The translations under genes and the position numbers were made by a program. 64,000 bases of DNA from Mucilaginibacter inviolabilis (lineage in GTDB: Bacteria > Bacteroidota > Bacteroidia > Sphingobacteriales > Sphingobacteriaceae), in contig NZ_JAANAT010000001.1 of the NCBI RefSeq assembly GCF_011089895.1, positions 1,612,001-1,676,000 on the forward strand, given 5' to 3'. Under the pieces are notes generated by a model. The model was given only the letters and a program-made list of their open reading frames with translations, did not search any database and was not told where the DNA came from. Each line of letters starts with the position of its first letter. Position 1 is the first letter of the stretch. Positions 13,745 to 45,247 of the stretch are shown one piece after another.

Positions 13745-13852
13745 CTAACCTAGGTGTATTTCAAAAATAATGGTTCGAGCCCAGCGTCGGGAGACCGGCT
13801 CGGCTTTAGCCGAAGCAGGGTTGATGATAAAGTGGATGTGTTTCAGTTTCAT
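13745..13852 (-). pseudogene. Possible N-terminal fragment of a diacylglycerol/lipid kinase
   Basis: A 35-codon minus-strand frame starts MKLKHIHFIINPASAKAEPV. This closely resembles the opening of diacylglycerol-kinase-like (LCB5/YegS) proteins, which begin with a strand followed by NPxSG. The similarity stops after about 20 residues, and the frame then runs into unrelated sequence next to the direct repeat. It may be a gene cut off when DNA was inserted here. The similarity is short and could be chance. Confidence 0.25.
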
Positions 13853-14038
13853 AACCCAACAACACCCCGCTGCCGCTTAAGTTTAGCTTTTTTATTTGGG
13901 CAATCCATATCCACCCGAACTTTGGTATCGCAGGCGCACTGGCTGGCGGTGGCAGCACCCTACATGGAGATAAAATTCGAAATTTCAATTTGCCAGATAA
14001 TAATTCTAATTTCAGCGGATCAAACCTTTGTCCAAAGA

Positions 14039-16570
14039 ATGAAAGAAGATAAATTAAATGGCATTAAACCTTTAACTGTCGTTCTTTTATGCCTATCTAT
14101 TTTCGGCATTTGGTTTCTCTGGACCAAATGGGTACGGAACAAAAAAGCCAGACAAAAACTGCAAACATTATTACCTGAGATCAGAGACGCGGCTAAAGAC
14201 TTTGAGCAGCTTATCAACTATGATTATTATTTCTCGAACTTCCGGGAACAGCAATTTACGCAAGCCCGATCTTCATTGCTCAAATCCATCCCCGGCTATT
14301 ATGGCGAAGTCGGCTTAGATACGGCGGATATAGAACTCCTCAGCAAATTGCTGAACAGCTATCAGCATATCAAAAGCGAGAGGGCTGTTTATAATGACCG
14401 CTTTGTAGAACTTGAAGCAGCGAAATATGCAAATCTGTTTAATTCGCTCGAATCCTATCCTTTGTCCAGGGATCAGGTCGAAGCGATCATACGCGATGAA
14501 GATAATAACCTGGTCATTGCCGGGGCAGGTACAGGTAAAACCACGACGATCAGTGCCAAGGTAGCCTATCTTTTGGAAAAGGGGCTCGCCAAACCACAAG
14601 ATCTGCTCATCATTTCTTTTACCACTAATGCGGTTGATGAAATGCGTGAGCGTTGCCTGAAGTTTTGCCGAAACATGCCTGATGCCGATAAGCTGGATGT
14701 CAGGACCTTTAACAGCTTTGGGTATTTTGTGACCCGTTTCTGTTCGGCTAAGGAAGTACTGCTGGCCTTTGATGGTAAAGATGATAAAGCAAAAATTTTC
14801 CTTCAGGAGAGGTTTAGTTACCTTTTTAAGAATGATGCGGACTTTCAAAAAAAAGCGATCAACTTCATCGCCTTTTTTAGCCGTCCGGAGCGTGATGAAT
14901 TTGAGTACGAAACACGCAACGAATACCTCAAACATGAACAGAGCTATAAAAATGTATCCTTAGATGGAACCCAGGTCAACAGCAAGGAAGAATTACAGAT
15001 CGCGAACTTTCTTTGTCTGTTTAAGATAGACTATGAATATGAGCGCCACTACCCTTTACAGCCTGAAGACCGTAACGCCAGCTTCGCGGCTTATACACCC
15101 GACTTTTACTTCCCAAAATATAAGATTTGGCATGAACATTATGGGATAGACCGGGAGGGCAACGTCCCCTCTTTTTTCAAAGCAAAACACCCTTTTCGCA
15201 CAGCGAAGGAAACTTATCACGCCGGTATGCTTTGGAAAGAAGATATCCATAAAAAGTATGGAACAACATTAATTAAAACTTATTCCTACGAAAATAAGGA
15301 AAATTCACTGCTGCAAAACTTAAAGACGCGGCTCGAAACTTTGGGTGTAGAATTCAATAAACGTACACCCGAGGAACTTTATGACCTGATCCAGTTATCC
15401 CCGGAATATGAAGACTTTATTGCTTTGGTACATAGCTTTCTGGGTTTGTTAAAGTCAAACGGCAAGCAACCGGCGGATATAATCATCCCTAAAGCTGATA
15501 AGCGGTTAAAAACATTTATGGATGTTTTTGCGCCACTGTTTCGTGAATATGAACGCAAGCTTCACGATGGTCATTCGATAGATTATAATGATATGATCAA
15601 CCTGGCGAGCAGCTATATCAGTGCAGGTGACTATACAAGGTCTTATAAATATATCCTCGTCGATGAGTTTCAGGATATGTCGCTCGGGCGTTATGAATTG
15701 CTGAAAAGCCTGCGCAAGCAGAATCCGGCGGCGAAGCTATACGCTGTTGGCGATGATTGGCAGTCGATTTTTCGGTTTTCCGGCAGCGATATTTCAATCA
15801 TCACGCAATTTGAGGAACATTTTGGCTACACCAGTCAATCTGCTATCCTGACCACTTACCGTTTTAACAACGAAATTTTAAAGACGACCAGCGACTTTAT
15901 TCAAAAGAATCCGGGCCAGATAAAAAAGCAATTGACTGCGCTCAGTGTCGCCCAACAACCCTCCTTTTTATTTCATGGACTGGAACTAAGCGGCCACACG
16001 CTACAACAGAAGCAAGCTATTAAACTTAAGTGTATAGAACATTTGTTGGAAAACATCAGCGCAACTAAAAGCGATGCCGTAGTATTTCTGATTGGACGCT
16101 ATAAACATAACAAACCACCGGGCTTCCAGGATTTACAAGCTGAATTTACGGAGCTCAGCTTATCTTATTTCACAGCGCATAGCGTCAAGGGCTTGACTGC
16201 TGACTTTGCAATATTGCTTGATCTTGATTCAGGTGTTTTTGGTTTTCCTTCCGAAATAGCGGATGACCCTATCCTTAATTCGGTGTTGCACGAAGGAGAT
16301 AAATTTGATAATGCGGAAGAGCGGCGCTTATTCTATGTAGCGACGACCCGGGCACGCCACCAGAATTTCATGTTATACGATTTGCATAATCCAAGCAAGT
16401 TTGTGCTGGAATTACAGGGCATAGGTTCAGCTCAATCCGTGGTGGAAAAAAAGAGTTGCCCTGAATGCGGTGGTATCCTGGTGCAGCGAACAGGTTCTTA
16501 TGGGGCTTTTTATGGTTGCGTTCATTACCCGCGGTGTGACGGTAAAGTGAAAGTGGATGCTATGGCTTAA
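14039..16570 (+). CDS. UvrD-family superfamily 1 helicase, helicase IV-like, with C-terminal topoisomerase-type zinc finger
   Basis: From the ATG at 14039 the protein has 843 residues. It starts with one membrane-type helix (TVVLLCLSIFGIWFLW). Helicase motifs follow in order: Walker A GAGTGKTTT (about 161-169), motif II DEFQD (about 541), AVGDDWQSIFRFSGSD, TTYRF, SVKGLTADF and ERRLFYVATTRAR. Between motifs Ia and II lies an insertion with E-x-x-IANFL, YTPDFYFP and WHEHYGID, like the nuclease-fold insertion of E. coli helicase IV. The C-terminus is a four-cysteine zinc finger (CPECGG ... CVHYPRC). The role is 3'-5' DNA unwinding in repair or defence. The frame is open to 13754, but those extra residues are not protein-like and would precede the membrane helix. 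The gene converges on the Lhr-type helicase. Confidence 0.88.
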   Translation: MKEDKLNGIKPLTVVLLCLSIFGIWFLWTKWVRNKKARQKLQTLLPEIRDAAKDFEQLINYDYYFSNFREQQFTQARSSLLKSIPGYYGEVGLDTADIELLSKLLNSYQHIKSERAVYNDRFVELEAAKYANLFNSLESYPLSRDQVEAIIRDEDNNLVIAGAGTGKTTTISAKVAYLLEKGLAKPQDLLIISFTTNAVDEMRERCLKFCRNMPDADKLDVRTFNSFGYFVTRFCSAKEVLLAFDGKDDKAKIFLQERFSYLFKNDADFQKKAINFIAFFSRPERDEFEYETRNEYLKHEQSYKNVSLDGTQVNSKEELQIANFLCLFKIDYEYERHYPLQPEDRNASFAAYTPDFYFPKYKIWHEHYGIDREGNVPSFFKAKHPFRTAKETYHAGMLWKEDIHKKYGTTLIKTYSYENKENSLLQNLKTRLETLGVEFNKRTPEELYDLIQLSPEYEDFIALVHSFLGLLKSNGKQPADIIIPKADKRLKTFMDVFAPLFREYERKLHDGHSIDYNDMINLASSYISAGDYTRSYKYILVDEFQDMSLGRYELLKSLRKQNPAAKLYAVGDDWQSIFRFSGSDISIITQFEEHFGYTSQSAILTTYRFNNEILKTTSDFIQKNPGQIKKQLTALSVAQQPSFLFHGLELSGHTLQQKQAIKLKCIEHLLENISATKSDAVVFLIGRYKHNKPPGFQDLQAEFTELSLSYFTAHSVKGLTADFAILLDLDSGVFGFPSEIADDPILNSVLHEGDKFDNAEERRLFYVATTRARHQNFMLYDLHNPSKFVLELQGIGSAQSVVEKKSCPECGGILVQRTGSYGAFYGCVHYPRCDGKVKVDAMA

Positions 16571-16661
16571 GCCTGGAGAAATGCGTTTCCTTTACAAATG
16601 CTAATATGGAAGGCATAAGCCGGGGACCTTTTGACAGATATAAAAGGAATCGGTTCCTGGA

Positions 16662-18797
16662 TTAATGATCCGTATGCCTAACCAGCCTGACATTGGCTAA
16701 AAACGCTCCCGCACCATCGAAATCGTAACGCGTTGCCTTCAGCAGTTCCTTCTGCAGTACAGGCGGCAGATAGACTCCCCATTTAGCGTTCACCATCCCC
16801 CCGGGATTGGCGGCAATAGCCTCCGTAAGATAGGCATCGACCTGTGCTAAATTGGCGAGCGCAGCTGTTAGAGTACTTTCAACGGTTTTAAAATCACAGC
16901 TGAAGTGGAACGTACTATCCTCTTCCACCAGGGTAGTAACAAAACCCGGCTTCATCTGCTGCAAAACGAAGGCTATAGCGCGGTTAACACCAGATCCCTG
17001 GAAAGTATAAACTATACAGCTACCGCCTTTCTCCGTAACCGGCCGGTCATACTTTAGGTCCTCTATGGCATATTTGCCGAACATTTTCCGGTATTCGGCT
17101 AATACATCTGCTGCGCTCTTATCCAGCTCACTCCAGGCAGATCCGGTCATCAGTAATTCCAGCATGCGCTCCCTGACCCGGACGTTGACATCCATACCAC
17201 CACCGGAAAATTTGGGTTTCTTACCATCCTTAGCCGGTATTACCGTGATCTTTTTGGATTTCTCATCGATATCGACGACCTTCCAGATCCGGGCCGCCAG
17301 GAATATATTCTCATCAACAACGATGATCGATGTTAAAGGAATTTCGCCGATGGGTCTATCGGCGTGAACGACTTTATAATTGGGGTCGGTTTTAAACACC
17401 GCGTAGAAATCACGTGCATTGACCATTCGCTCGCCTTCCACCCCGATGATCAGTTCCCCGCCGATAAGTTCCAAAAGATCCAATTGCAACAGGTGTTTCA
17501 CGATTGCGGTGACAGCCGCTGGTTTGATTTCGGCAAAGGCGTAATTGACGGACATTCGTTCCTGCAATGCCTCGAACGAGCAGCCGCTCAGTTGTTTTAC
17601 GGTCGATAAGATCTGGTGGAGTAAAATATCGTAAGCATATTGATTGTTACCTATTGGCTCAACGAATTTTTCGCGGTAAAGGGAAAAGCAGGCCAGTGAC
17701 TGGATCAGGCTCCAGGGTTCCGTTGCGTAAAACAATAACATGCTGGTCGTCCCATCCTTCCTGCCGCTCCTGCCGACCCGCTGGATTAATGAAGCAATGG
17801 AGTTGGTAGCATCGACCTGGACAACTTTATCCACCGAGCCTATATCAATACCCAGCTCTAAGGTAGAAGTGCAGGAGATCGCAAATGGATAGCGCTGGTT
17901 ACTCTTTGCAAACTCCTCCACGTATTCTCTTACTTCCCTATCAACAGAAGAATGATGTGAAAAGTAGTTATGATGACCGCCGACACGGTCTGAAATTTTG
18001 TTTAGTTTGACTGCGATCTCTTCCGCTCTGCCCCTGCTGTTGGGAAAAATCAGCACCTTATTGTCCTTGGTATTGCTATAAAGATCTTTGAGCAGGTCAA
18101 GTGGCAGTTCGGCACCTTCATCCGGAAAATACTTAAACTCGGCATCTATCTCTTTGCCGGTCGGATCACGTAACACCGCAGTATTGGCGGCATTGCCGGT
18201 CATCTGTTTGACTGCGGCATGGTCGCCTATTGTTGCGGATAGCCCGACTACTTTATATTGGCATTTAGCGGTAAGGGGCAGCCTGCTGAGCAATGATTGT
18301 AACTGTACACCCCTATCTGTTCCGAGAAACGAGTGGATCTCATCAATCACCACATAATCCAATGTGCCGAACAGGTGAGGAATATGTTGCGGCGCATTAC
18401 AAAACATGGCTTCCAAAGATTCGGGTGTGATCAGCAACACACCTTCCGGATCGCGGATCAATTTCTCTTTCAATGACCGCTTTGCCTCGCCGTGCCATTT
18501 AGTTACCGGCACATCAAGGTATTCGCAAAGTTCTTCTATGCGGGTGAATTGGTCGTTGATGAGCGCGATCAGCGGTGAAATGTAAAGCACTTTCACCCCC
18601 GGCGTTTTAAAACTGACCCGGGACAGAATGGGCAAAAATGCCGCTTCGGTTTTACCGGAAGCCGTGCGGGATTCCAGGATATAATTACGGTCGTCCGCTA
18701 AAATGTGTTGGATTGCTGCCGCCTGGATGGAACGCAGGGATTCCCAGCCTTTGTTGTGGATATAGCGCCTGATCGGTTCTGCCAGCAATTCGACCAT
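16662..18797 (-). CDS. Lhr-like superfamily 2 DEAD/DEAH helicase
   Basis: A 711-residue SF2 helicase. Motifs in order: Q-like SIQAAAIQHIL, Walker A SRTASGKTEAA (residues 43-53), DEIHSF, GLSATIGD, FPNSRGRAEEIA, and the second RecA domain with CTSTLELGIDIG and QRVGRSGR. The last 200 residues hold a winged-helix-like region and a DUF1998-like C-terminal part without clear motifs. Lhr-type helicases unwind DNA or RNA-DNA hybrids 3'-5'; the BREX helicase BrxHI is of this type. It is the third gene of a tight operon, starting one base after the stop of the DUF2791 ATPase gene. I infer that it is the motor of a TerB_C/ATPase/helicase complex. Confidence 0.88.
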   Translation of the reverse strand: MVELLAEPIRRYIHNKGWESLRSIQAAAIQHILADDRNYILESRTASGKTEAAFLPILSRVSFKTPGVKVLYISPLIALINDQFTRIEELCEYLDVPVTKWHGEAKRSLKEKLIRDPEGVLLITPESLEAMFCNAPQHIPHLFGTLDYVVIDEIHSFLGTDRGVQLQSLLSRLPLTAKCQYKVVGLSATIGDHAAVKQMTGNAANTAVLRDPTGKEIDAEFKYFPDEGAELPLDLLKDLYSNTKDNKVLIFPNSRGRAEEIAVKLNKISDRVGGHHNYFSHHSSVDREVREYVEEFAKSNQRYPFAISCTSTLELGIDIGSVDKVVQVDATNSIASLIQRVGRSGRKDGTTSMLLFYATEPWSLIQSLACFSLYREKFVEPIGNNQYAYDILLHQILSTVKQLSGCSFEALQERMSVNYAFAEIKPAAVTAIVKHLLQLDLLELIGGELIIGVEGERMVNARDFYAVFKTDPNYKVVHADRPIGEIPLTSIIVVDENIFLAARIWKVVDIDEKSKKITVIPAKDGKKPKFSGGGMDVNVRVRERMLELLMTGSAWSELDKSAADVLAEYRKMFGKYAIEDLKYDRPVTEKGGSCIVYTFQGSGVNRAIAFVLQQMKPGFVTTLVEEDSTFHFSCDFKTVESTLTAALANLAQVDAYLTEAIAANPGGMVNAKWGVYLPPVLQKELLKATRYDFDGAGAFLANVRLVRHTDH

Positions 18798-18798
18798 A

Positions 18799-20112
18799 CT
18801 ATAATTCTTCTATATCCTCCAATAATAGATCTTTTGGCCGTTCATCTTTCACCTGAAGGCTGGCAAACATTTTTTTCTTGTCGGCCTCCGGGTGCTGGCG
18901 GAGTAAACTCAGAATACCTAAAAAATCACGAATTACTTCGCGGGGTAATAAAAACTCAGCGGCGCCTGGTTTATTATAGAGCTCTTCCATGAACAAGCGG
19001 ATCTCTTCATCCGACAAGGCCACCTGGACAGAATAATTGACATTGAATATTTCCCGCAACATTTGGAGCAAAACAAAGACCTGGTTAAAATCCAGCGGCC
19101 GCAGCTTGATCACCGGCTGGGCGAAATCACGGTAGGCTGAGCTTTCAAAGCGGTTGGTTTCCAGCCGGGAGCGCAGCGCGCGATAACTAAAAAACCCGCG
19201 GCGCTCGTTTTCCAGCACCTCATTCGTCCCGGCAAAATTGATGAATAAATTGCCGACCTTCCCCTGGAAACAATCGTTGTAGATCATCAATATCTTTTCG
19301 TAGTTTTTTTCACGCATCGCGGCCGTACCGATCTTGTATAAATTGATCGCCTCATCCAGGTTGATCATAAAGCCGCTATAACCCATGCTTACAAAAAACT
19401 TGCAAAAGTTCTTCAGCATATCATAATAATTCAGGTCGTCGATGATCTCGCGAACACCCAGGTCTTGCCGCGCCTCGGTTTTGGTAGTATATTCCCCTTT
19501 GAGCCAGCGCAAAGCATTAAGCCGCAGCCGGTCATCCTGGCGGACATAGCCTTCATAATATTTCAGCACCACGAGTCCGAAGTCAAATCCGCCGACCTCG
19601 CTGATTTCCCGGACCGCTTTGGTGATATTCGCCTGCACCAACGGCAAATGTTCCTCCTCCCGGATCAGATGTAAGGGAACATTATTTTCGGTGGCCGTTT
19701 TTGTCAATACTTGTTCTATCCATTTTTCCAGCAAAGTGGGCAAAGCGCCGCCTTCTGGTTTGGTTTGAATAGATATATTATCCATGATCGCCTTGTATAG
19801 CGACCTTCCCTTACCATCATTGGCATACAGCCGGTTATCCGGCGTAAAGTCAGCGCCGGCGACCACGAACTTAGCTTTTAAGGCTACTGTGTTCAGGACA
19901 TGCATCATAAATGATTTACCCGACCCAAAATCACCGATCCAGAATTTAACCATGCTATGGCCGTTCTTGACATCTTCCAGCGCTTGTACGAAAGCGTCAA
20001 CTTCGGCTTTACGGCCAACTACAATATGTTGCACTCCTACCTTGGGCACTACACCACTAGATAGCGAGTTGATGATCGCGGTAGCTTCTTTTGGTTTTAG
20101 GTTGTTAATCAT
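18799..20112 (-). CDS. DUF2791 P-loop ATPase (BREX BrxC/BrxD-like ATP-binding protein)
   Basis: A 437-residue P-loop protein. VGRKAEVDAFVQAL leads into the Walker A box IGDFGSGKSFM (residues 59-69), the order seen in ORC/Cdc6-like DUF2791 ATPases. A Walker B-type region reads FMINLDEAIN, and a sensor region reads FINFAGTNEVLENE. Relatives are the BrxC/BrxD ATPases of BREX phage-defence loci and ATPases found with TerB_N/TerB_C proteins. Such proteins probably load or regulate a partner on DNA. Its start overlaps the stop of the upstream TerB_C gene by four bases (ATGA) and the helicase gene follows after one base, so the three are translated together. Confidence 0.85.
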   Translation of the reverse strand: MINNLKPKEATAIINSLSSGVVPKVGVQHIVVGRKAEVDAFVQALEDVKNGHSMVKFWIGDFGSGKSFMMHVLNTVALKAKFVVAGADFTPDNRLYANDGKGRSLYKAIMDNISIQTKPEGGALPTLLEKWIEQVLTKTATENNVPLHLIREEEHLPLVQANITKAVREISEVGGFDFGLVVLKYYEGYVRQDDRLRLNALRWLKGEYTTKTEARQDLGVREIIDDLNYYDMLKNFCKFFVSMGYSGFMINLDEAINLYKIGTAAMREKNYEKILMIYNDCFQGKVGNLFINFAGTNEVLENERRGFFSYRALRSRLETNRFESSAYRDFAQPVIKLRPLDFNQVFVLLQMLREIFNVNYSVQVALSDEEIRLFMEELYNKPGAAEFLLPREVIRDFLGILSLLRQHPEADKKKMFASLQVKDERPKDLLLEDIEEL

Positions 20113-23069
20113 TCAGCGTATATTTTTTTAAAGTAATCAGGGTCAATCGTGTATTCGTCTTCGCTTTCTTCAATAAGTACGTCATCCAACAAATCAATGC
20201 AAGCTTCGTTAATGCTTTCAATCAATTGATTTTTGAATGCACCATGCTGCTGGGCAAACTGGCTAACGGATCCAACCGAGAGCGTAAAATCATTTGATCG
20301 AAATAAATCCAATAAAGTTTGTTGCAAAACATTCAGCTCTGTTGTCACCAGCGTGTCGGCTGGCGCTGCGATTGCTACCACGGTCATACTTTCTTCTTCC
20401 AGGGCCGCTTCAGGTTCGTCTTCTTCATTCAAATATTTATTCAAAACGCTAATTGTGCCTGACAGCTCTTGACCCGCCATTTTAATGGCGCTGTTATCCA
20501 GTGTGATTGTTTTGCGTTTAGGTTCATAAAAGCCAGCAACCTTTTTAAGTGATTGTTTAATGTCCTTGAAAACAATCAACTCGTCTACAATCGCCTGAAA
20601 TTCCGCTTGTTGTTCCGGTGTTTTGAATAACTGCTTTTGGTTGGTTTTATTCAATGGTTTGTTATCGATGCGCGCTGACTTTTGATCAAACTTGACGTAA
20701 TACAAATACATGCCCAGCGCTTCAATTTTATCGATTGGTGCCATCAATTTAGCAGCTTCGAAATAAATGTTTTCTACCGACGGATTTTTCTTATTCAGCT
20801 TGGCCAGGGAGTGAATTTCTTTAACAATGGTTTTTGCATCCCGGTTAGTATCGCTCATCGTACGCTCAAACTGGTGTTTCCACCGGGTCGAATTTTTTTG
20901 ATTAAGTTCTATTTCCGTGATTTCATCTGGTGCTGGCATGCTTGGAAGGAGTTCAACAATGACTTCGTCAAGCACGGGCTCGATATAGCGTTTGAACAAT
21001 TCTAAAGCTTCCGGGCTCCGGGCATTGAATGCAGGAGAAATGCTCCGGCCGCTTGCCCAGGCTTCACGCAATGCACTTTCTGCTTTTTTGTAAACGGTGT
21101 AGTAAAGGTCCGCTTCAGTAGCTTCTTTTACCTGGCTATGGTCATAATAACCCCATTGGTTAGGTTGGTGCAGGGAAAATTTATAGGCCGCATTTTTAAT
21201 ATCTTCCAGCCTTTGTTGCAGTCCAATAGGTTCATTGGCAAAACGCCGAACCATTTTTTTAATGATGGTCAGATAAAGCTTGATTACGGCGATAGAACAT
21301 CCTTCAATGCCATTGAAGGCATTGGTATAATGGATAAATTTATTCAGCCATATAACTTCCTGCGGACTTAAATTTAATTTTGATTTGTATTTACTGCCGA
21401 GTTTATAGTCATCCGGGTTATAACCTTGATAAACGTGGTTTGTGGTACTCGTGAAGTTGGTCGGCGTTGTAAAACCAACTGAAATATCCAAATTAAGCTT
21501 TATATCTCCGGGTACAATGTCGATCACGTTAGTTGTCTGATCTTCTTTCAGTGGTTCAAAAGGTGCGGCATCGATCACGACAGGTTTTTCAGGAAGGTCG
21601 GCAGGACTTTGGACAGACAGCGCAATTTTTGCGGCCGCTACTGACGCGACAATTTCACTGATCTCAATAGGCGCAGAAGTAGGTGTTACTTCAACAATAG
21701 TCTCGTTCCCTTTCGATGGTTCAAATCGTGTCGTATCCGGACTTGGCGGCGGGGTAATAATGATCGGGTCAACCTTTGCTTCCACAGGAGCTTTTTTAGC
21801 GGGTTTGTTTTGAGCAGGCTGAACTGGCAGGCGGACATCCGTTTGCTGTTGAAGACGGCCAATCTGTAGCAACAGGTTGGCGAAATTATCGGCCGCGCCT
21901 TTTTTTGAAGTAGAGATTACTACGTTTAAGCCCGTATTTGACGAAAAACAATAGTCGGAATAAGCGCAGATCGACAATTGCTTGTTATTAGCAAATCTAC
22001 GGTCAGGGCCACCTTTTTTATTCATATGTTGCCAGGTGCGATCTACTGCCTGCGCATCTCTGGGAACTATTTCATTTTCAATAAATCGGCCGGTCTGGGC
22101 GGTAATTTTTAAATTTTTATAAAAAACTGCGGTGTAGCTTTTATCGCGCTTGATCAGAAGACGTTCGGGCAAAAAGAATAATTCAGAGTTTTGCAGCTGA
22201 ATAGCAGGAATTTGAACGTTCGTTTTGAAAAACTCTAGTGGGGTTTTGTGACCGTTGATGAAATGAATGTTATAGCGATGAATCAGATTGGCGGCACCGC
22301 CACTGCTCTTTAAATTTAAATTAGCTTGTGTGCCGGTATGCTGCCATATTTTCGCAGCACCCGCAAACTCACTGAAAAACTTTTTAAAATTCTCATAGAG
22401 GGGTCTCAAGTTTTCATCTATTTCGTAAAAAATGGCGATTTCCATTTGTCGACGGTCTATTTTACGGAGCCAGGCGATTAGAAAAATAAAAAACAAGATG
22501 CCGCCTGCACAATGGTATGGAAGCTGCGCATTGGACAAATAGGTGCTGTTCTCTATTACCGCGTCCGTATGATGGTGTCTGATGGTGGAGAAAGCTCCGT
22601 TGACATAGCCCACGGAATCGTGTAAAGCAATTTTCAACCATTTACCATTAGTGCTGTCTAATAAAGGAAAAGTTTCCCCATACCTGGCTGACCTGAGGAT
22701 TGACGATTTAGCGTTAGGTAAATGCCGGATGTTCAATCCATCGTAATTTGTAATCTCGACTTTTGTGCTATCTGTCCCCGGTTGTTCGACGATTTGGCGG
22801 GTGTTAAACGAATTGTAAAACAGCAGGATCGTAAAAATTATCAGCGGATAAACTCCAAACCAGGTAACGTGGGATAATTGCTTTGATTTTAGGTTAAGGT
22901 CCTGTATAAACTTTTCGCTATCTGATTTTTTTAGCTGGTGATCTTTCGCAGACCGCTCTGAATAATAGGTTCCTTGCGCGGCAAGCGTTACAAATATACC
23001 CGGTTTGTCGACTGTTTCTCCTATGGAGTTATCTCTGAAACCTGATAAATTATGATTACTCCGATCCAT
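20109..23069 (-). CDS. Membrane-anchored SH3b protein with TerB_N-like and TerB_C domains
   Basis: A 986-residue multidomain protein. Helices at about 70-88 and 183-201 flank a bacterial SH3 domain (108-163: IRHLPNA, WLKIALHDSVGYVNG) that would lie in the periplasm. A cytosolic domain (about 208-410) contains FFLPERLLI and a Cys-rich ICAYSDYCFSS. A Pro-rich linker (430-545) and a helical TerB_N-like region (560-760, starting YNPDDYKLG) follow. The last 75 residues fit TerB_C: QFAQQHGAFKNQLIESINE then an acidic end. No TerB core was seen. TerB-associated proteins are linked to stress and phage responses and are often paired with DUF2791 ATPases and SF2 helicases. I infer a membrane-tethered sensor or scaffold for the two downstream enzymes. 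Confidence 0.72.
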   Translation of the reverse strand: MDRSNHNLSGFRDNSIGETVDKPGIFVTLAAQGTYYSERSAKDHQLKKSDSEKFIQDLNLKSKQLSHVTWFGVYPLIIFTILLFYNSFNTRQIVEQPGTDSTKVEITNYDGLNIRHLPNAKSSILRSARYGETFPLLDSTNGKWLKIALHDSVGYVNGAFSTIRHHHTDAVIENSTYLSNAQLPYHCAGGILFFIFLIAWLRKIDRRQMEIAIFYEIDENLRPLYENFKKFFSEFAGAAKIWQHTGTQANLNLKSSGGAANLIHRYNIHFINGHKTPLEFFKTNVQIPAIQLQNSELFFLPERLLIKRDKSYTAVFYKNLKITAQTGRFIENEIVPRDAQAVDRTWQHMNKKGGPDRRFANNKQLSICAYSDYCFSSNTGLNVVISTSKKGAADNFANLLLQIGRLQQQTDVRLPVQPAQNKPAKKAPVEAKVDPIIITPPPSPDTTRFEPSKGNETIVEVTPTSAPIEISEIVASVAAAKIALSVQSPADLPEKPVVIDAAPFEPLKEDQTTNVIDIVPGDIKLNLDISVGFTTPTNFTSTTNHVYQGYNPDDYKLGSKYKSKLNLSPQEVIWLNKFIHYTNAFNGIEGCSIAVIKLYLTIIKKMVRRFANEPIGLQQRLEDIKNAAYKFSLHQPNQWGYYDHSQVKEATEADLYYTVYKKAESALREAWASGRSISPAFNARSPEALELFKRYIEPVLDEVIVELLPSMPAPDEITEIELNQKNSTRWKHQFERTMSDTNRDAKTIVKEIHSLAKLNKKNPSVENIYFEAAKLMAPIDKIEALGMYLYYVKFDQKSARIDNKPLNKTNQKQLFKTPEQQAEFQAIVDELIVFKDIKQSLKKVAGFYEPKRKTITLDNSAIKMAGQELSGTISVLNKYLNEEDEPEAALEEESMTVVAIAAPADTLVTTELNVLQQTLLDLFRSNDFTLSVGSVSQFAQQHGAFKNQLIESINEACIDLLDDVLIEESEDEYTIDPDYFKKIYAE

Positions 23070-23089
23070 GCAAAATTTTAAAGTTGAGG

Positions 23090-23106
23090 TTTTCTAAGTT
23101 AGAAAA
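23090..23106. promoter_or_regulatory. Perfect palindrome in the leader of the TerB_C operon
   Basis: TTTTCTAA-G-TTAGAAAA is a perfect 17-bp palindrome with a single central base. It lies 21 bp upstream of the start codon at 23069 and just downstream of a -7 element (23117-23124), so it would sit at about +5 to +21 of the message. This is a good position for a repressor operator. No nearby regulator can be assigned. Confidence 0.5.
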
Positions 23107-23116
23107 TATCATGAAG

Positions 23117-23124
23117 CAAACATA
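23117..23124 (-). promoter_or_regulatory. Bacteroidota -7 element of the TerB_C operon
   Basis: On the minus strand this reads TATGTTTG, matching TAnnTTTG. It is 47 bp upstream of the start codon at 23069. No clear -33 TTG lies at the usual distance. Confidence 0.4.
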
Positions 23125-23261
23125 ACTGTCTTTGAAAATATTTAACCGCGTACTTATTTGCGGCAGGCGCGTGAATGCTTACCTAATTCACCAGATAAAT
23201 TTGGAGTATTTGGTAAATGAACAAGATACGATTATATTAGTACCAACCTTATTACAAAATA

Positions 23262-24218
23262 ATGAACTTTGTAACCATCGACTTTGAAACTGCTACCTCG
23301 GACCGTAGCACGCCTTGTGAAATCGGTCTGACCTTTGTGGAAAACAACCAAATAGTAAAAACCCTTTCTTGGCTAATTAAACCGCACTGCTATCCAAATT
23401 TTGATTTTTTCAATGTACTCATACACGGAATTACGCCGGCTATGGTGGCGGATCAGCTTGAATTTAATGAATTATGGCTAGAGATACTACCGTTGATTGA
23501 AGGTAAATTTTTATTTGCGCACAATGCCGGTTTCGATTTTAGCGTTTTGCGAAAAACACTCGATGCATACGATCTTCCCTATCCGAACGTGGTTTATGCC
23601 TGCAGTTATATTATGGCAAAAAATATCTGGCCAGGTTTGTCATCATACAATTTGAAATCACTATGTAATGAACGCCAGATAACTTTTGATCATCACCGGG
23701 CTGGTGCCGATGCCAAAGCAACAGCTGAATTGATTTTGATAGCTTTGGCAGAAAGGGAAATCACCCACATTGACGACTTTAAAATCAAAAGCCGGATGGC
23801 TATAGGGAATTTATCATCCACAGGTTATCATCCTTGTCAAACGATCAGGACTTATACAAAGCCGGATTTTCGAGCTGTCGCTGCTGATACTTCTCATCAT
23901 GACCGCGACTGTTTGTTTTACGAACGTAATGTTGTCTTTACAGGTAAGCTTTCCTCGATGGAAAGATCCGCTGCTCAAAAGATCGTCATTTCAATTGGCG
24001 GCCGGATAACGGATGGTGTTACGCGGGATACCGATTACCTGGTAGTTGGGTTTCAGGATTATCGTTATGTCGGAGAGGATGGAATGAGTTCGAAGCAGAA
24101 GAAAGCCATTGCCATGGTTAATTCGGGCGCTAATTTGGAAATATTATCCGAAGACGACTTTTTAAGAAACATCGACGGTAAATGGAACTCAATTAAAGTT
24201 ACGGTGGAAACGATTTAA
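23262..24218 (+). CDS. DnaQ-like 3'-5' exonuclease fused to a BRCT domain
   Basis: A 318-residue protein. Residues 1-175 are a DEDDh exonuclease: Asp7 and Glu9 in TIDFETA, the second aspartate in FAHNAGFDFSVL, and the His/Asp pair in HHRAGADAKAT. Residues about 215-310 form a BRCT domain of the NAD-ligase type (VVFTGKLSSMERSAAQKI, then IGGRITDGVTRDTDYLVVG). The exonuclease removes nucleotides from 3' ends; the BRCT part probably docks it to damaged DNA or a partner. The fusion is common in Gram-positive bacteria and Bacteroidota. The gene is divergent from the TerB_C operon (about 190 bp between starts) and converges on the HEPN gene with 33 bp between. Confidence 0.9.
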   Translation: MNFVTIDFETATSDRSTPCEIGLTFVENNQIVKTLSWLIKPHCYPNFDFFNVLIHGITPAMVADQLEFNELWLEILPLIEGKFLFAHNAGFDFSVLRKTLDAYDLPYPNVVYACSYIMAKNIWPGLSSYNLKSLCNERQITFDHHRAGADAKATAELILIALAEREITHIDDFKIKSRMAIGNLSSTGYHPCQTIRTYTKPDFRAVAADTSHHDRDCLFYERNVVFTGKLSSMERSAAQKIVISIGGRITDGVTRDTDYLVVGFQDYRYVGEDGMSSKQKKAIAMVNSGANLEILSEDDFLRNIDGKWNSIKVTVETI

Positions 24219-24251
24219 CTTAGTAAGCTCAGTATCTACCGGGCTTATCGC

Positions 24252-24977
24252 TTAAGGTGTTTGAGATAAAGAAGCCGAAATCCTGTCAAAATCATCCTTT
24301 AAATGCATCAACAAAATCAGCACAGCCTGCTTTAATATCCCTTGATTTTTTTCAAAAATCCAGTTATAGGAAACCAATCCCTTCAACTGTGTCTCATAAA
24401 CCTCTTTATCGTAAGGGCTAAGTTGATAAGTGCTTAACATCGCCAAAGTGGAATCTTCCAGATCACCACGATGCGCTATCCTATCGCGAAGCGGTTTAAT
24501 CTTTTGAAATGCATCATCAAAATAGTCCAAGTATAAATAGAGTTTTTGCGCCTGAACATCGGAATTTTTTCTAACGCGTTTTTCCAAACCTGGTGACTGT
24601 GTGTGCCCCATTCGATAAACAACATTTACTAAATTAAGTGTGATATCTTTAAGCTTCGGCAACCTGAAGAAATAGTTCTCCCACATAAATTTGATATAAT
24701 CCCCACGGTCCACCCGCGTCATCTTAAAGGATTTCACTTTTGGATGCGCAAATTCGATCAGTTTGATCGTCATATCGATATCCCAAAAACTTTGCGATAG
24801 ATCATACAACACGTCGTTCACCGACTTCATATATAGGGCGTATTCGCTGGTCTTTTCATGCTTATTCAGTAACATCGCGGTTGTGACCTTTTGTACCTCC
24901 TGGCCCAGCGGTGTCGAAAATAAGGATTGCGAGTTCCACTCTATAGAGTCATCTATATCATCCTTCATTCGTGTCAT
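24252..24977 (-). CDS. HEPN-like helical protein (Cthe_2314-type), fourth gene of the sbc operon
   Basis: A 241-residue, mostly helical protein with no signal peptide or membrane segment. Late in the sequence it carries LRDRIAHRGD, in which Arg164 and His169 form the R-x4-H motif of HEPN ribonucleases. The surrounding pattern (a long helix with YFDDAF, then a helix with RDRIAH) fits HEPN families of the Cthe_2314 kind. Many HEPN proteins are RNA-cleaving toxins or effectors of defence systems; some are inactive scaffolds. The ATG overlaps the sbcC stop codon (ATGA), so it is produced with the SbcC subunit. The next Met is residue 4. I infer an effector or regulator of the SbcDC complex. RNase activity is a prediction from the motif. 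Confidence 0.62.
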   Translation of the reverse strand: MTRMKDDIDDSIEWNSQSLFSTPLGQEVQKVTTAMLLNKHEKTSEYALYMKSVNDVLYDLSQSFWDIDMTIKLIEFAHPKVKSFKMTRVDRGDYIKFMWENYFFRLPKLKDITLNLVNVVYRMGHTQSPGLEKRVRKNSDVQAQKLYLYLDYFDDAFQKIKPLRDRIAHRGDLEDSTLAMLSTYQLSPYDKEVYETQLKGLVSYNWIFEKNQGILKQAVLILLMHLKDDFDRISASLSQTP

Positions 24978-27900
24978 ACAAGCACGGGTTGCTGACCATA
25001 ACCAATAATGCTTATCCTGCTCACCCCGCCTGGCTGGGGACTTACCCGAATCTGTGTACCGATACGCTCTTTTAACGCCTCAACATGCGAAATAACACCG
25101 ATCGATTTACCTTTTGCCTGAAGACTCTCTAAAGCGCCGATAGCAATATCAAGTGTTTCGGGGTCCAAGGTACCAAACCCCTCGTCGATAAATAGGGAGT
25201 TAATTTGAACCTTATGGCTGGCTAAATCAGAAAGCCCCAACGCAAGCGCCAGGCTGACTAAAAAACTCTCTCCACCGGATAAACTATTCATTGGTCGCTC
25301 AACATCAGCCTGATAACCGTCTACAATCAGTAATTCAAGGTCAGCCAGCTCACTTTTACGGATGGTATAACGCGACGTCAGTTTTTGCAGGTGCAGATTG
25401 GCCAAATCTGTTAGCCGGGTCAAAGTTAACCCTTGGGCGAAACGGCTAAATTTTCTACCATCTGCCGAACCAATTAAATTGTTCAAACTGCTCCATCGCG
25501 CAAATTCCTTAGTCTGCTTTTCTATCTGTATCGTGATTGCAGCATATTTCTGACGCGTCACGATGTCATCCGCTAAAATCTGCTTTAATTTACCTATTTC
25601 CTGATTCAATTGGGCAAGTAACGAATCGGAAACCCCTATCGCCTCATTCAAAACCTCAATTGATTCTGTCGTCAGCTGTTTTGCATTTTCAGTTTTAATT
25701 TCGTTTTCTCCTCTGTCAATAGACTCTTGAAGCGACGTTATAGTAGATTCCAATTCCTTCTTCAAATTTCTGATCTCAGCGGCGAACTCTTCAATCATGA
25801 ATAACGATCGCAAAGTTTCCACGTCGGCGATTTCTTTTTTGATCAAGGCCTGCGAAAGCTTGCGCCTCAGTGCAACGAACTGCGTCGAAACAGACAACTG
25901 CCGTTGTGTTTCCTGGGTAATCCTGTCAGCAGTCTGTTCAAATTGCTGTTTTTTTGTTTGATAATTTTCCTGCATCAAATCTTTTTGCTTTCGTTGCCGA
26001 TCAATTAAATCTTGCAAACTGTTACGCTCCATTACTGGATTGCGCTCACCGAACAAATCTTGGCGTTCTTTGCGCTGATTGCTCCAGTGGGATTTCTCCG
26101 CCTGCAACTTAATCATCGCACTATCCAATTCTTTCTTACGGATAATCAATGTTTTATCTATATTCTGTATTTCTGCTAATAATCCTGACAAAGTAACCTC
26201 GCAACTTTGTTTTTCACGAAGGGAGCTAACATAGGCAGCAGCGCGGTTTATTAATAGCTGATCATACTGTGCATCTTCCAAAGATATACCCAGTGGCTCC
26301 AGCAGTGCCTTGATCGCTTTAATTGTCTCATCCCGTGTGATCTGTTGACTATCTATTGCCATCTCCAAGTCGTTCACTTTTTCAATGGCAGCTTTAACGC
26401 GTTCGGCAATAACAGACGTATTATTCTGTGCGGCTTTTAAATCCTGACCTTCGGATGCCCATTCATCGCGGGCAATCTGAAGGTCTTTTGAAAGTTTTTG
26501 TACATGATCCATTTGCTTTATCAATGCGCGCAAGACTTGATTTTTTGAAGTCATCGCCTCGTTGATTGAGCTAGAAGATATGATCGTAAAATCTCCCTTA
26601 TTCCCGGAAACTTGACCAAATTCATTTTTCAAATCGCTCAGAGTCACATCAAGAATTTCGTACTGATTTCTTTTCTCGTTCAAAGTGGTATTAAGGCCAT
26701 TGATCAACAAGCTTTGTTCATGGGATTTTGCTGAAAGTCTTTTAACAAGCTGATCCTGTTCGTTAAATTTTTGTTCAGTTGCATTCAACTCTCGCCCCGG
26801 CTGTTCTGCCGCGTAAGGATGATCCAAAGATCCACACAGAGGACAAGGATCCCCCGCAATCAATTCACCTCTATCCTTTTCGTAGTTTACTATTCGCTGT
26901 TGCAAAATGACCAATGCGTTCAAATCATTCAGGTGTTCAACTGCCGATTTTTGCTGCTCAGTGATATCATTAAAAGCTGTGTTTTGCGTTCCAATCTCTT
27001 TTTCCAATTTCGCTACAACTGAAGCCAGGGAAGCTTTTTCATTCAAAGCCTTATCGTATCTTAGAGAGATGGCATAAAGCTGTTCATAGGTTTTAACTTC
27101 AGCTGGTAAATTTACCAGTTCCTTTGTAATTTGATCAATAGTTTTTCCGCCCAACGCATCTTCGACCGACCGCGTAATTTTTACGATTAAATCTGCCTTT
27201 TCATTAAGCCGATCGTTTAGTACCCCTATACGTAAACTGTTTTCATAAACTTCATTTTCAGTAGACAGAAGCGTTTTTTGTACCTCATTTTTTTGCGTAA
27301 GCGTTAAGTTAGTTTGTTGTTCCAGGTTTCTTAACTGCAAACGGTGTTGCTTTATCAATGCAATGGTCGGTTCCAGATTTTTGTCCTGGTCATGTTCTGC
27401 CAGCCAGTTAATTAAACGTTCTGATTTAGCTTGCGCTTGTTCGGCGCCGGCCCGCGCTGCTTCCTTATCGTCCACGAGTTTACTGACCTTCAGTGCGGCA
27501 TCGTCAAACATAACCTGTAACTGGTCCACTTGCGATTTCGAATGTTGAATCGCAGTATCTAAATGCATGACCTTTTCAAATAGTGGAAATTGGACTTGAT
27601 AGGTCGACTCTGATACTTGCAGTATTTCCGCAGCGTTATTTAGTTGAGATAAGGCCTCTTTTGAAGCTGACTCAAATGCAGGCAGCGCTAGTATCAACTC
27701 CGTTAATCTGGCGTCAATATCTTCCAGTTGTTGGCCGACCGTGTCCATTTCTACCAGTTGTGGTCGAAAAGTGACGGCCAAGTCGTGCTGATTTAACCGC
27801 TCAAACTCATTGGTATTTTCGCTGTAACGATCTTGCGCTGCGCTCAATTGACGACGTCGGTCCTCGACTGCCAGGCGTAACTTTTCCAGTGACACCAACC

Positions 27901-28633
27901 AGTCCAATTGTGCGCGAATCGCCGACTGAGCTTTTTTCTCGGCTTTTTCGGATTTGTCAAGTTCGTTTAAATGAACCTTGTGACTTTGTAATTCATCATC
28001 GGTCAGTATTGTAGTATCGTCAAGTTTATCAATTAAACTATCGAGCAACTCCCTTTCTGTTTTCTGCCTATTATATACATATCGGGACAAATCAGCATAG
28101 ATAATTGTATCCGTTATCTTTTCCAGCAATTCACTACGTTCACTTTCACTGGATTTTAAAAACTTCGTAAAATCCCCCTGGCACAAAATTACTGAACGTA
28201 AAAACTGATTATAATCAAGGCCGCATAGCTCAACTATCTTATTCTTAGTAGAAGTCGGGGTATGACCTCCAATAAACAGACCCGTTTCTACTTCGGATAG
28301 TTCCATCTTTTCCGGCTGCAGGTTCCCGTTTGCATTCAATCTGCTCCGTTTCCGGGACCATTTGGAACGATAAGCTTTATTATTCACTTCAAATTCTACC
28401 TCCGCAAAACTCTCCCCGGTATGTCGTGACATCGTTTCCTCCTCTTTATCATGGCGGTGGACTTTGGCATATAAGGCTAAGGTAATCGCATCCAGGATGG
28501 TAGTTTTTCCCGACCCGGTCGGCCCGGTAATAGCAAAGAGACCACTTTCATTGATTGGAGCCACATCGAACCGGATCTCATGCGAACCGGTCAACGAATT
28601 AAGATTCAAAAATTTCACCCCAAGAATTTTCAT
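24974..28633 (-). CDS. sbcC: SbcC (Rad50-like) subunit of the SbcDC nuclease
   Basis: A 1219-residue SMC-like ATPase. Walker A is GPTGSGKTTILDAI (residues 37-50) and a Q-loop region reads RSVILCQGDFTKFL (about 146-159). Two long coiled coils surround a zinc hook CPLC at 597-600. Near the C-terminus are the ABC signature LSGGESF (1118-1124), Walker B with FIDEGFGTLD (about 1148-1157) and the H-loop SHVEAL. SbcC opens and closes around DNA ends, while SbcD cuts hairpins, covalently blocked ends and palindromes. Length and all motifs are normal, so the protein should be active. It overlaps sbcD by four bases and the HEPN gene by four bases. That link to a HEPN gene is not part of the usual sbcDC arrangement. 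Confidence 0.95.
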   Translation of the reverse strand: MKILGVKFLNLNSLTGSHEIRFDVAPINESGLFAITGPTGSGKTTILDAITLALYAKVHRHDKEEETMSRHTGESFAEVEFEVNNKAYRSKWSRKRSRLNANGNLQPEKMELSEVETGLFIGGHTPTSTKNKIVELCGLDYNQFLRSVILCQGDFTKFLKSSESERSELLEKITDTIIYADLSRYVYNRQKTERELLDSLIDKLDDTTILTDDELQSHKVHLNELDKSEKAEKKAQSAIRAQLDWLVSLEKLRLAVEDRRRQLSAAQDRYSENTNEFERLNQHDLAVTFRPQLVEMDTVGQQLEDIDARLTELILALPAFESASKEALSQLNNAAEILQVSESTYQVQFPLFEKVMHLDTAIQHSKSQVDQLQVMFDDAALKVSKLVDDKEAARAGAEQAQAKSERLINWLAEHDQDKNLEPTIALIKQHRLQLRNLEQQTNLTLTQKNEVQKTLLSTENEVYENSLRIGVLNDRLNEKADLIVKITRSVEDALGGKTIDQITKELVNLPAEVKTYEQLYAISLRYDKALNEKASLASVVAKLEKEIGTQNTAFNDITEQQKSAVEHLNDLNALVILQQRIVNYEKDRGELIAGDPCPLCGSLDHPYAAEQPGRELNATEQKFNEQDQLVKRLSAKSHEQSLLINGLNTTLNEKRNQYEILDVTLSDLKNEFGQVSGNKGDFTIISSSSINEAMTSKNQVLRALIKQMDHVQKLSKDLQIARDEWASEGQDLKAAQNNTSVIAERVKAAIEKVNDLEMAIDSQQITRDETIKAIKALLEPLGISLEDAQYDQLLINRAAAYVSSLREKQSCEVTLSGLLAEIQNIDKTLIIRKKELDSAMIKLQAEKSHWSNQRKERQDLFGERNPVMERNSLQDLIDRQRKQKDLMQENYQTKKQQFEQTADRITQETQRQLSVSTQFVALRRKLSQALIKKEIADVETLRSLFMIEEFAAEIRNLKKELESTITSLQESIDRGENEIKTENAKQLTTESIEVLNEAIGVSDSLLAQLNQEIGKLKQILADDIVTRQKYAAITIQIEKQTKEFARWSSLNNLIGSADGRKFSRFAQGLTLTRLTDLANLHLQKLTSRYTIRKSELADLELLIVDGYQADVERPMNSLSGGESFLVSLALALGLSDLASHKVQINSLFIDEGFGTLDPETLDIAIGALESLQAKGKSIGVISHVEALKERIGTQIRVSPQPGGVSRISIIGYGQQPVLV

Positions 28634-29847
28634 GATCCTCCCTCCTGCTGATGTAATGCCTCCAATGCCTCTTTGAAAGTCGAGAGCATTTCCTCGGGTA
28701 CAGGGCTGCCATACACCGACTCATATTTTTTTCCAAACACGGCTTCCGGAGTTAAGTCATTGAGCGCTAATGCTTCCACTTTTGAGTCCGTATTGTTCCT
28801 TCTGATCAATTGTTGCCGCGAAAAAAAATGCCCGATAAAAGGTTTGCTCAATTTAAGCTTAGCCAGTTGTTCTGATAGATCAGGAAGAAAGGCATCGGTT
28901 TCTATTTTGAGCTCTACCCATGCCGGGTATTTCAACCCGGCATCTTCCAATAAACTGATCTGGCTTTTGACGCTACTCATACTTCCTGATATCCTGATCA
29001 GGCTGCGACTGGGCGGGATTGGAACTTCTTTAACTTCCACCACACCTTTACGAAACTCGACTGCAATAACTTGCTTTTTGTGATTATATTCGGAGAAGTC
29101 CAGAGCAATCGGGGAACCTGAATATCGAATATGCTCAGCCCCGTTTACCTTTTGAGGTTTGTGCAGGTGGCCCAGGGCGATATAGTTGAATTCCATGGGG
29201 AACTGGTCGCCGGCCACCTGCCCCAAATTCCCTACATGAATATCCTTTTCCGAACCTGAAGCAGCTCCACCGGCCGCAAATAAATGACCGGTTGCGATTA
29301 CCGGAATATCTTTTTCTTTGTGTAATGCAATATGTTCAACCAAATTATGGTAATGATCCATGATCCCCATTTTAATACGCATTTCCCGTTCTTCAGCGGT
29401 TTCGCCTGATATGGATAACCTAATATCTTTGTCTCGTAAAAATGGTACCGCACAAACGATCAGACCAATCTCACCATCTGAATTTTTGATAGGGATAACT
29501 TGTTCAGCAGGATGCTCCGGTACGCCGCCTACAATATGTACATTAAAATATTTCAGTAAGGTTTTCGGTGCATTTAATGTACTGATCGAATCGTGGTTGC
29601 CACCAATGATGACCACATCCCGGCAGCAAGTATCTTTGACTTGACGTAAAAAACGATAATATTGTTCCAGTGCCGAATTGGAAGGAGAACCGGAGTCAAA
29701 GATATCACCCGCAACGATGAGCACCTCAATTTTTTCAGCATTCAGTATGCCTATCAGCCAATCCAGAAAATCCTGATGTTCTTCTGTTCTTTCGAACTGT
29801 TCCAGGCGCTTCCCCAAGTGCCAGTCCGCAGTATGTAATACCCTCAT
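28630..29847 (-). CDS. sbcD: SbcD (Mre11-like) nuclease subunit
   Basis: A 405-residue calcineurin-like phosphoesterase. All metal-binding motifs are present: ADWHLG (Asp8, His10), GDIFDSG (Asp48), GGNHDS (Asn84, His85), ATGHLF and ALGHLHKPQ. After the catalytic domain comes a C-terminal SbcD domain that binds the SbcC coiled-coil base. The SbcDC complex is an ATP-dependent double-strand exonuclease and a hairpin endonuclease. The start codon overlaps the stop of the upstream PrrC/RloC-like gene (ATGA) and the stop overlaps the sbcC start, so expression is coupled in both directions. Confidence 0.95.
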   Translation of the reverse strand: MRVLHTADWHLGKRLEQFERTEEHQDFLDWLIGILNAEKIEVLIVAGDIFDSGSPSNSALEQYYRFLRQVKDTCCRDVVIIGGNHDSISTLNAPKTLLKYFNVHIVGGVPEHPAEQVIPIKNSDGEIGLIVCAVPFLRDKDIRLSISGETAEEREMRIKMGIMDHYHNLVEHIALHKEKDIPVIATGHLFAAGGAASGSEKDIHVGNLGQVAGDQFPMEFNYIALGHLHKPQKVNGAEHIRYSGSPIALDFSEYNHKKQVIAVEFRKGVVEVKEVPIPPSRSLIRISGSMSSVKSQISLLEDAGLKYPAWVELKIETDAFLPDLSEQLAKLKLSKPFIGHFFSRQQLIRRNNTDSKVEALALNDLTPEAVFGKKYESVYGSPVPEEMLSTFKEALEALHQQEGGS

Positions 29848-40008: not shown

Positions 40009-40010
40009 TT

Positions 40011-44913: not shown

Positions 44914-45247
44914 TTGGAAAGGCTTAAAGGTTTGCGAGTTTAAATATCAACATATCTGCCGCCAAACGCAAACAAAAACTTGATTTTATACAATTTGATT
45001 TAAATCAATTACCTCCTACGCTTTATGATTTTTAACTAGGTTATGGCCAACAAGCAACTTTGTATTCATATATATCGTGTAGGCATTTTCTGAAAGTTAA
45101 AAGTGCGTAAAAATCTTGATAAATATCTGCAAATCAGTTTCTTATTAAAGTGCAGGATCCCGAACCTTTTAACAAAATTGTTCAACAAAGTAAAGCGCTG
45201 AAAAAATTGAAAAATTTTTGAAAAACATATAAATTAGCTATATTTGG
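44914..45247. other. AT-rich gap upstream of recD
   Basis: About 330 bp, markedly AT-rich, between recD and the right direct repeat. It should hold the recDCB promoter, but no clean TAnnTTTG element at a sensible distance was found on the minus strand. No gene, RNA or hairpin was recognised. Confidence 0.5.

Follow-up and report, generated by a model that had tools for sequence, protein, structure and literature searches.

Which system is encoded by the three tightly coupled genes at positions 16662-23069 of a 64,000-nucleotide stretch of the Mucilaginibacter inviolabilis genome (hereafter, the window; contig positions 1612001-1676000 of a 7.15-Mb assembly), and why does its first protein carry an SH3b domain between two membrane helices? 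An earlier reading of the letters alone (the sequence-only reading) had described a membrane protein with SH3b and Ter-type domains, an ATPase and a helicase, and had proposed that they link envelope sensing to a DNA-processing motor. As judged from sequence comparisons, the trio is Shango (SngABC), an anti-phage system of a known kind, and its SngA is a chimera in which a membrane protein of another family is fused to a Ter module. The sequence-only reading had missed that the trio is a named and tested system, that SngA residues 207-410 form a further domain, and that the N-terminal half of SngA corresponds to a separate protein family. The three genes are as follows.

20109-23069, minus strand: sngA, 986 amino acids, chimeric SngA (PADLOC SngA, Pfam SH3_3 and TerB_C)
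18799-20112, minus strand: sngB, 437 amino acids, ATPase of the BrxC/D family (PADLOC SngB, PF10923)
16662-18797, minus strand: sngC, 711 amino acids, superfamily 2 helicase (PADLOC SngC, DEAD and Helicase_C)

The coupling of these genes is as previously described, with a 4-bp overlap between sngA and sngB and a gap of one base between sngB and sngC. We assign the trio to Shango because each protein is best matched by its own PADLOC Shango model and because tested relatives are anti-phage. SngB matched the SngB model at 3.5e-159 (528.6 bits), followed by BrxD at 9e-43 (145 bits), while SngC matched the SngC model at 2.4e-210 (699 bits), followed by BrxHI at 2e-129 (431 bits). The SngA match (E 1.5e-26) is limited to residues 682-983, the C-terminal third, which align with profile positions 258 to 523; no PADLOC family besides SngA was found for this protein at E <= 0.01. 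A published description of Shango (PMC10250203) defines it by three proteins encoded in one operon, namely an ATPase, a DEAD/DEAH helicase and a protein of TerB type, all of which are present in the window operon. The same source reports its occurrence in E. coli as well and, in P. aeruginosa PAO1, a modest protection, with 10-100-fold changes in plating, against many phages but not all. According to Pfam, PF10923 (BrxC_BrxD) spans residues 6-417 of SngB (E 1.8e-139), and SngC contains DEAD and Helicase_C domains. The motifs that we take to be those of the ATPase (GDFGSGKS at 60 and MINLDE at 249) and of the helicase (ASGKT at 46, DEIH at 152, SAT at 187 and QRVGRSGR at 339) are intact.

The ATPase and the helicase had been likened to the BrxD/BrxHI pair of BREX standing outside a BREX locus, and this likeness holds, since both are homologous to the BREX proteins, which are their second-best models. 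The core of BREX consists of the PglZ phosphatase, the BrxX methylase and the BrxL/BrxC genes. A reduced BREX that retained BrxD and BrxHI would account for the Pfam call and for the second-best models, yet the Shango models outscore them by the bit values given above, SngA is present, and no BREX methylase, PglZ or BrxL was among the PADLOC matches listed for 19 scanned window proteins, in which the sole appearance of BrxC was a weak hit to SngB (E 0.0052). We therefore rejected BREX as the identity of the trio and give its reduced form next to no credence. In a published tree, SngC groups with BrxHI, DruE and DpdJ (PMC12278908).

The architecture of SngA can be divided into the following parts, all on the minus strand.

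22854-23069, minus strand: residues 1-72, tail at the N-terminus that by eye could be a DUF4236 remnant
22800-22877, minus strand: residues 65-90, first transmembrane segment (hydropathy 65-83, AlphaFold helix 73-90)
22575-22766, minus strand: residues 102-165, SH3b, predicted periplasmic (Pfam SH3_3, AlphaFold strands, Foldseek)
22458-22529, minus strand: residues 181-204, second transmembrane segment (hydropathy 181-199, AlphaFold helix 188-204)
21840-22451, minus strand: residues 207-410, predicted PH-like domain, elsewhere the C-terminus of DUF4236 proteins
21435-21833, minus strand: residues 413-545, low-confidence linker (predicted local distance difference test score, pLDDT, under 50)
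20121-21434, minus strand: residues 546-983, Ter module, helical and conserved, with TerB_C (842-983) at its end

The SH3b domain between two helices, predicted previously, was thus recovered by Pfam (SH3_3 at 110-160, 30.8 bits against a cut-off of 27), by hydropathy and by AlphaFold, and its best Foldseek matches were 2kt8 (a fragment of C. perfringens CPE1231, E 5.9e-4) and, next, 2krs (the SH3 domain of CPF_0587, E 1.8e-3). The claimed Ter-type domains were confirmed in part: TerB_C is found at 842-983 (69 bits, cut-off 26.3), whereas neither TerB_N nor TerB (PF05099) was detected by Pfam at E <= 0.1. Set against Shango as described, the window SngA differs in its N-terminal half, which is of the DUF4236-family type, and in having no detectable TerB_N or TerB. 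PF05099 is the domain given for Shango in PMC10952713. The AlphaFold model of the whole protein (75 alignment rows) had a mean pLDDT of 64, with a helix at 73-90, an SH3-like barrel at 102-165 and a helix at 188-204 (pLDDT of these blocks mostly 83-92), little confidence over 205-550 and, beginning near residue 552, a helical module predicted with confidence. When residues 179-436 were modeled alone (21 rows), the mean pLDDT was 85, and the solved folds nearest to the 207-410 region were PH domains (best Z 6.8, 3dcx, 99 residues, root-mean-square deviation 3.6). This model had no Foldseek match at E <= 0.001, nor any at this threshold among viral structures, and the PH fold is suggestive only.

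The origin of the N-terminal half is indicated by proteins that exist on their own. SngA residues ~40-412 are collinear, with no large gaps, with a stand-alone protein of the order DUF4236, transmembrane segment, SH3b, transmembrane segment, PH-like domain (one such protein was aligned). Stand-alone DUF4236-SH3b proteins from nine genomes of the same genus are 46-50% identical to SngA, the SH3b-to-PH-like region is found at E < 1e-70 in 12 of 351 genomes of the family besides its own, and in all ten loci fetched (10/10) it lies in a separate open reading frame of 456-479 amino acids. The single stand-alone protein scanned by Pfam has an intact DUF4236, a domain listed there as of "unknown function", together with SH3_3. 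Residues 207-410 of SngA also match the C-terminal part of other proteins, in which DUF4236 was found in five of the six scanned. Since the alignment is collinear and the relatives are encoded separately, SngA looks like a DUF4236-SH3b protein whose DUF4236 was lost or decayed and which was joined to a Ter module. The two differ in that the stand-alone family is without the Ter module, whereas SngA, related as it is, is without a Pfam call for DUF4236 (PF14020) at its N-terminus. What is new here is that the membrane module of SngA apparently derives from another family, and this points to a way in which systems of this kind could acquire a different sensory input.

The stand-alone gene has company of its own. 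In seven of the ten loci it lies directly 3' of a gene for a PLD-like protein and a gene for a protein of about 330 amino acids without a Pfam match (PLD was called in locus L196, and the PLD-like proteins of the other loci are 60-70% identical to that one). This conserved trio, found at L196:4599-9002 and in the same order in L197-L201 and L203, thus comprises a PLD-like protein of ~663 amino acids, a ~330-amino-acid protein and the DUF4236-SH3b protein with its PH-like domain; kinase-like and response-regulator genes often adjoin it. Its PLD protein had weak PADLOC matches only, to DrmC and DpdK, and PADLOC gave nothing convincing for seven DUF4236 proteins. Possibly, the trio represents an undescribed defence or envelope-stress system.

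Relatives of the PH-like domain are also encoded in 51 viral-contig loci (L132-L182), mostly with a DUF4236-like start by eye, and in 2 of 50,697 phage records, both from Microcystis phages. These occurrences would suit a decoy: the PH-like domain, present in many prophage proteins too, would serve in SngA as bait for phage factors or prophage-encoded proteins, whose binding would reveal the phage to SngA. However, most of the viral-contig matches are 22-38% identical, no binding partner is known, and the closest relatives, the 46-50% identical proteins, are chromosomal and stand beside the PLD-like gene in most loci, so we consider the bait explanation improbable.

That the N-terminal half of SngA is exchanged can be read from the operon's nearest relative, a copy in M. 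phenanthrenivorans (L017 = L121; NZ_JAHVAP010000010.1). Its SngB and SngC are 97% and 93% identical to those of the window and its SngA is 74% identical from residue 467 onward, while the N-terminus of that SngA is unrelated, being about 190 residues long with one hydrophobic segment and no SH3b. At the DNA level, blastn aligned the M. phenanthrenivorans locus only with window positions 16660-21538, an interval that starts shortly beyond the sngC stop and reaches about codon 510 of sngA; the similarity covers sngC, sngB and the 3' half of sngA, its end falls in the SngA linker (residues 413-545), and the rest of the 19-kb locus had no blastn match to the window. Because the match is confined to this interval, sngB, sngC and the part of sngA encoding the Ter module form a cassette whose surroundings in the two species are unrelated, and the N-terminal half of SngA has been exchanged. 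As the two copies have near-identical SngB and SngC and different SngA N-terminal halves, Shango sensing can be tested by swapping these halves.

The exchange also recurs across Shango loci. We compared 79 complete, unique SngA sequences (the window, 74 of 80 surveyed loci and L116-L119, leaving out six truncated rows and the duplicate L120). An N-terminus with SH3b and a transmembrane segment was present in 13 of the 79 (12/78 without the window), and another 41 had a transmembrane segment starting before residue 60 and no SH3b; each open reading frame was taken to begin with the earliest start codon downstream of a stop, which may make some N-termini overlong. On a tree of SngB and SngC (84 rows), the SH3b class appears in five places and there are at least 15 changes among three N-terminal classes, the tree being a quick LG+G4 one with some long branches. 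Pfam, applied to 71 SngA, found TerB_C in 71, SH3_3 in 13, TM2 in 7, and TerB_N and TerB in one each, the latter two both in an SngA encoded on a conjugative plasmid of Arthrobacter crystallopoietes and in none of the other 70 scanned. In that protein the PH-like domain precedes TerB_N, TerB and TerB_C, and its gene is followed by SngB and an annotated DEAD/DEAH helicase. Several other SngA have, by eye, a signal-peptide-like stretch ahead of the SH3b, and seven of eight SngA from other phyla, picked by hand, have a hydrophobic N-terminus. When 75 SngA were compared, profile against profile, with three from other phyla, only the TerB_C end could be aligned (probability 93.7). Odd members among the complete SngA are L089 (415 amino acids), L091 (4 kb from its sngB) and L069, from Hymenobacter siberiensis, in which two consecutive open reading frames of the Ter-module type lie ahead of sngB (L069:5979-9016).

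We hold it somewhat more likely than not that, in this Shango with its chimeric SngA, the membrane-anchored SngA serves as an exchangeable input to a DNA motor made of SngB and SngC. We infer that SngA acts as the input subunit and sits in the inner membrane, its SH3b domain facing the periplasm and its PH-like and Ter parts the cytosol. A phage-caused change of the envelope, or a phage product, would be read by the exchangeable N-terminal half; the signal would be relayed via the Ter module and would license the SngB ATPase and the SngC helicase, as the DNA-acting output, to work on phage DNA near the membrane, and in some relatives a BRCT protein might be an optional partner that adds a DNA or nuclease contact. 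Exchange of the N-terminal half would then alter what is sensed and leave the motor unchanged. The earlier idea of a membrane-linked DNA-processing machine fits this evidence. SH3b domains can bind cell walls, and by analogy the SH3b of SngA may read the cell wall. The analogy is with Zorya, a likeness of mechanism only, in which an inner-membrane component with a periplasmic, wall-reading part is linked to DNA-acting components; the SH3b of SngA is a domain other than that of ZorB, and neither ZorA nor ZorB was among the PADLOC matches listed for the 19 window proteins. In Zorya, peptidoglycan binding by the periplasmic part is important for function (PMC11890865). The open-licence literature, in its titles, abstract starts and passages, yielded no description of the SngA architecture.

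Several observations weigh against this interpretation. The transmembrane calls come from Kyte-Doolittle windows and AlphaFold, and the charges do not settle the topology, there being 10 lysines and arginines before the first transmembrane segment, 9 in the 93-residue loop and 5 just after the second. The PH fold match of residues 207-410 is weak, and the PH-like domain was found in none of the SngA from the 80 surveyed loci. Neither SH3b nor a predicted N-terminal transmembrane segment is present in 25 of the 79 complete SngA, so membrane anchoring is not essential to all Shango. Finally, the exonuclease-BRCT gene next to sngA has a 90% identical counterpart in genome G733, followed by genes for an SbcC-like protein, an SbcD-like protein and an AAA ATPase in the order of the window, and a 77% identical relative in G773, both genomes having no SngB match.

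The N-terminal half might instead be a mere anchor or scaffold that holds the motor near incoming DNA, its SH3b and PH-like parts having no specific sensory role and recognition taking place in the Ter module, SngB or SngC. The 41 SngA with a hydrophobic N-terminal segment and no SH3b would suit this explanation, as would the fact that the motor and the Ter module are the conserved parts. On the other hand, the exchanged part comprises entire folded domains, SH3b and PH-like, which elsewhere make up a protein of their own, and the SH3b class recurs in the tree as described, so a simple anchor seems to us unlikely, if still the most serious competitor. A wider version of the exchangeable-input proposal, which we put forward tentatively and with less than even confidence, is that Shango is in general a membrane-tethered receptor-motor with exchangeable sensors. 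SngA would take receptor modules from other, possibly defence-related, membrane proteins, a fixed DNA-acting output made of the Ter module, SngB and SngC could recruit BRCT or exonuclease partners, and proteins of the DUF4236-SH3b-PH-like type would form a family of receptors common to Shango and a PLD-type system, passing their signal to one or the other. More than one system may be served by the PH-like domain and by the DUF4236-SH3b family.

The sequence-only reading had allowed that the trio could be a housekeeping set conserved regardless of defence context. SngB was found at E <= 0.001 in 8 of 395 genomes of the class, with seven strong matches (73% identity or more) and a weak one in G304 (27%), and in 7 of 149 genomes of the genus, the own genome being included in both counts. 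SngB-like genes, possibly some BrxD among them, occur in 691 plasmid records, mostly of Klebsiella and Salmonella (688 under 60% identity, 541 predicted conjugative); no match to SngB was found in phage records. Such a patchy spread in genus and class, together with the plasmid records, is the pattern of a mobile system and rules out a housekeeping operon. Ter proteins are also linked to chemical stress, which would favour a stress or DNA-maintenance set tied to tellurite-type (Ter) functions, but the rarity within the genus, the plasmid records, the near-identical copies with different flanks and the anti-phage activity of family members make such a non-defence role very improbable. Widespread as it is on these records, Shango nevertheless has an unsolved mechanism, given as unknown in a 2026 review (PMC12926258). 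On alphaproteobacterial plasmids, the genes that come after Shango are one annotated as DUF4297 anti-phage-associated and one for an ATPase (L233:8644-13196 and L245:7488-9257); L233 continues with genes for a DNA repair exonuclease and for an AAA ATPase, and L245 has an IS3 element within sngA, which it disrupts.

The window around the operon looks like a mosaic, or island, of cassettes, of which the following parts were delimited.

13754-16570: UvrD-like gene; among the 149 genomes, 7 others hold a relative (E < 1e-150)
23070-23261, no strand: spacer that separates sngA from the divergently oriented exonuclease gene; the similarity with the Shango-free G733 starts at 23205
23262-24218, plus strand: DEDDh exonuclease with BRCT (Pfam RNase_T, BRCT), a possible, unproven Shango partner
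23262-32045: exonuclease-BRCT, HEPN, SbcC, SbcD and AAA_13 genes, AAA_13 being the PADLOC PDC-S06 match (1e-265)
36695-45018 (also delimited as 36634-44913): RecBCD-like block, 92-94% identical in G754 with other flanks

Beyond the AAA_13 gene, integrase, CoiA-like, WYL and RecB/C/D-like genes follow. The neighbourhood survey proposed earlier gave a mixed picture of defence context: the window itself looks like an island of cassettes, whereas the nearest neighbours of Shango loci are not enriched in defence genes, with 83 PADLOC families against 82 in controls (E <= 1e-10, 133 proteins each). Only DEDDh/PDC-S48 stands out, in 5/133 against at most 1/133 (none among the control matches listed).

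These 133 nearest flanking proteins, from 75 of the 80 loci, include by Pfam 12 with BRCT, 5 with an RNase_T exonuclease domain and 3 with TerD. A BRCT profile scan of 84 other Shango loci (the 80 and L116-L119, some flanks ending at contig ends) found BRCT proteins in 16, in each case no more than 1,000 bp away from the trio, and none in 20 control loci or in 13 other loci (Fisher p 0.037 against the 20 controls and 0.005 against all 33), the profile having been built from, and iterated on, the same loci as were counted. Fifteen of them are genes of their own; positions no farther than 2 kb away make up 31% of the flanking bases (binomial 2.7e-8). In M. pedocola (L067:10316-13399), SngC is fused to a TerB-like-BRCT region in a helicase open reading frame of 1,027 amino acids, the end of which is 53% identical to the separate neighbour of ~300 amino acids, a protein with by-eye TerB-like repeats and a BRCT end. 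On the SngB and SngC tree, the BRCT neighbour is gained or lost at least 15 times. A BRCT protein is thus likely to be a Shango partner in some relatives. The exonuclease-BRCT of the window is weakened as a dedicated fourth Shango gene by its presence in G733 and G773 and seems rather to travel with the SbcCD cassette, which in G733 (L243) is without the HEPN gene and has an AAA protein only 24% identical to that of the window.

RecC was found in 6 of the 149 genus genomes, of which 3 are among the 7 with Shango (hypergeometric p 0.0012, own genome included, kinship uncorrected). In G777, a single strand encodes, small open reading frames aside, a kinase-like protein, a response regulator, the PLD-like, ~330-amino-acid and DUF4236-SH3b proteins, RecD, RecC, RecB, SngA, SngB and SngC. 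On a Paenibacillus plasmid (NZ_CP054609.1, 35146-35712; H67), a protein annotated as TerD-family overlaps a DEDDh exonuclease match.

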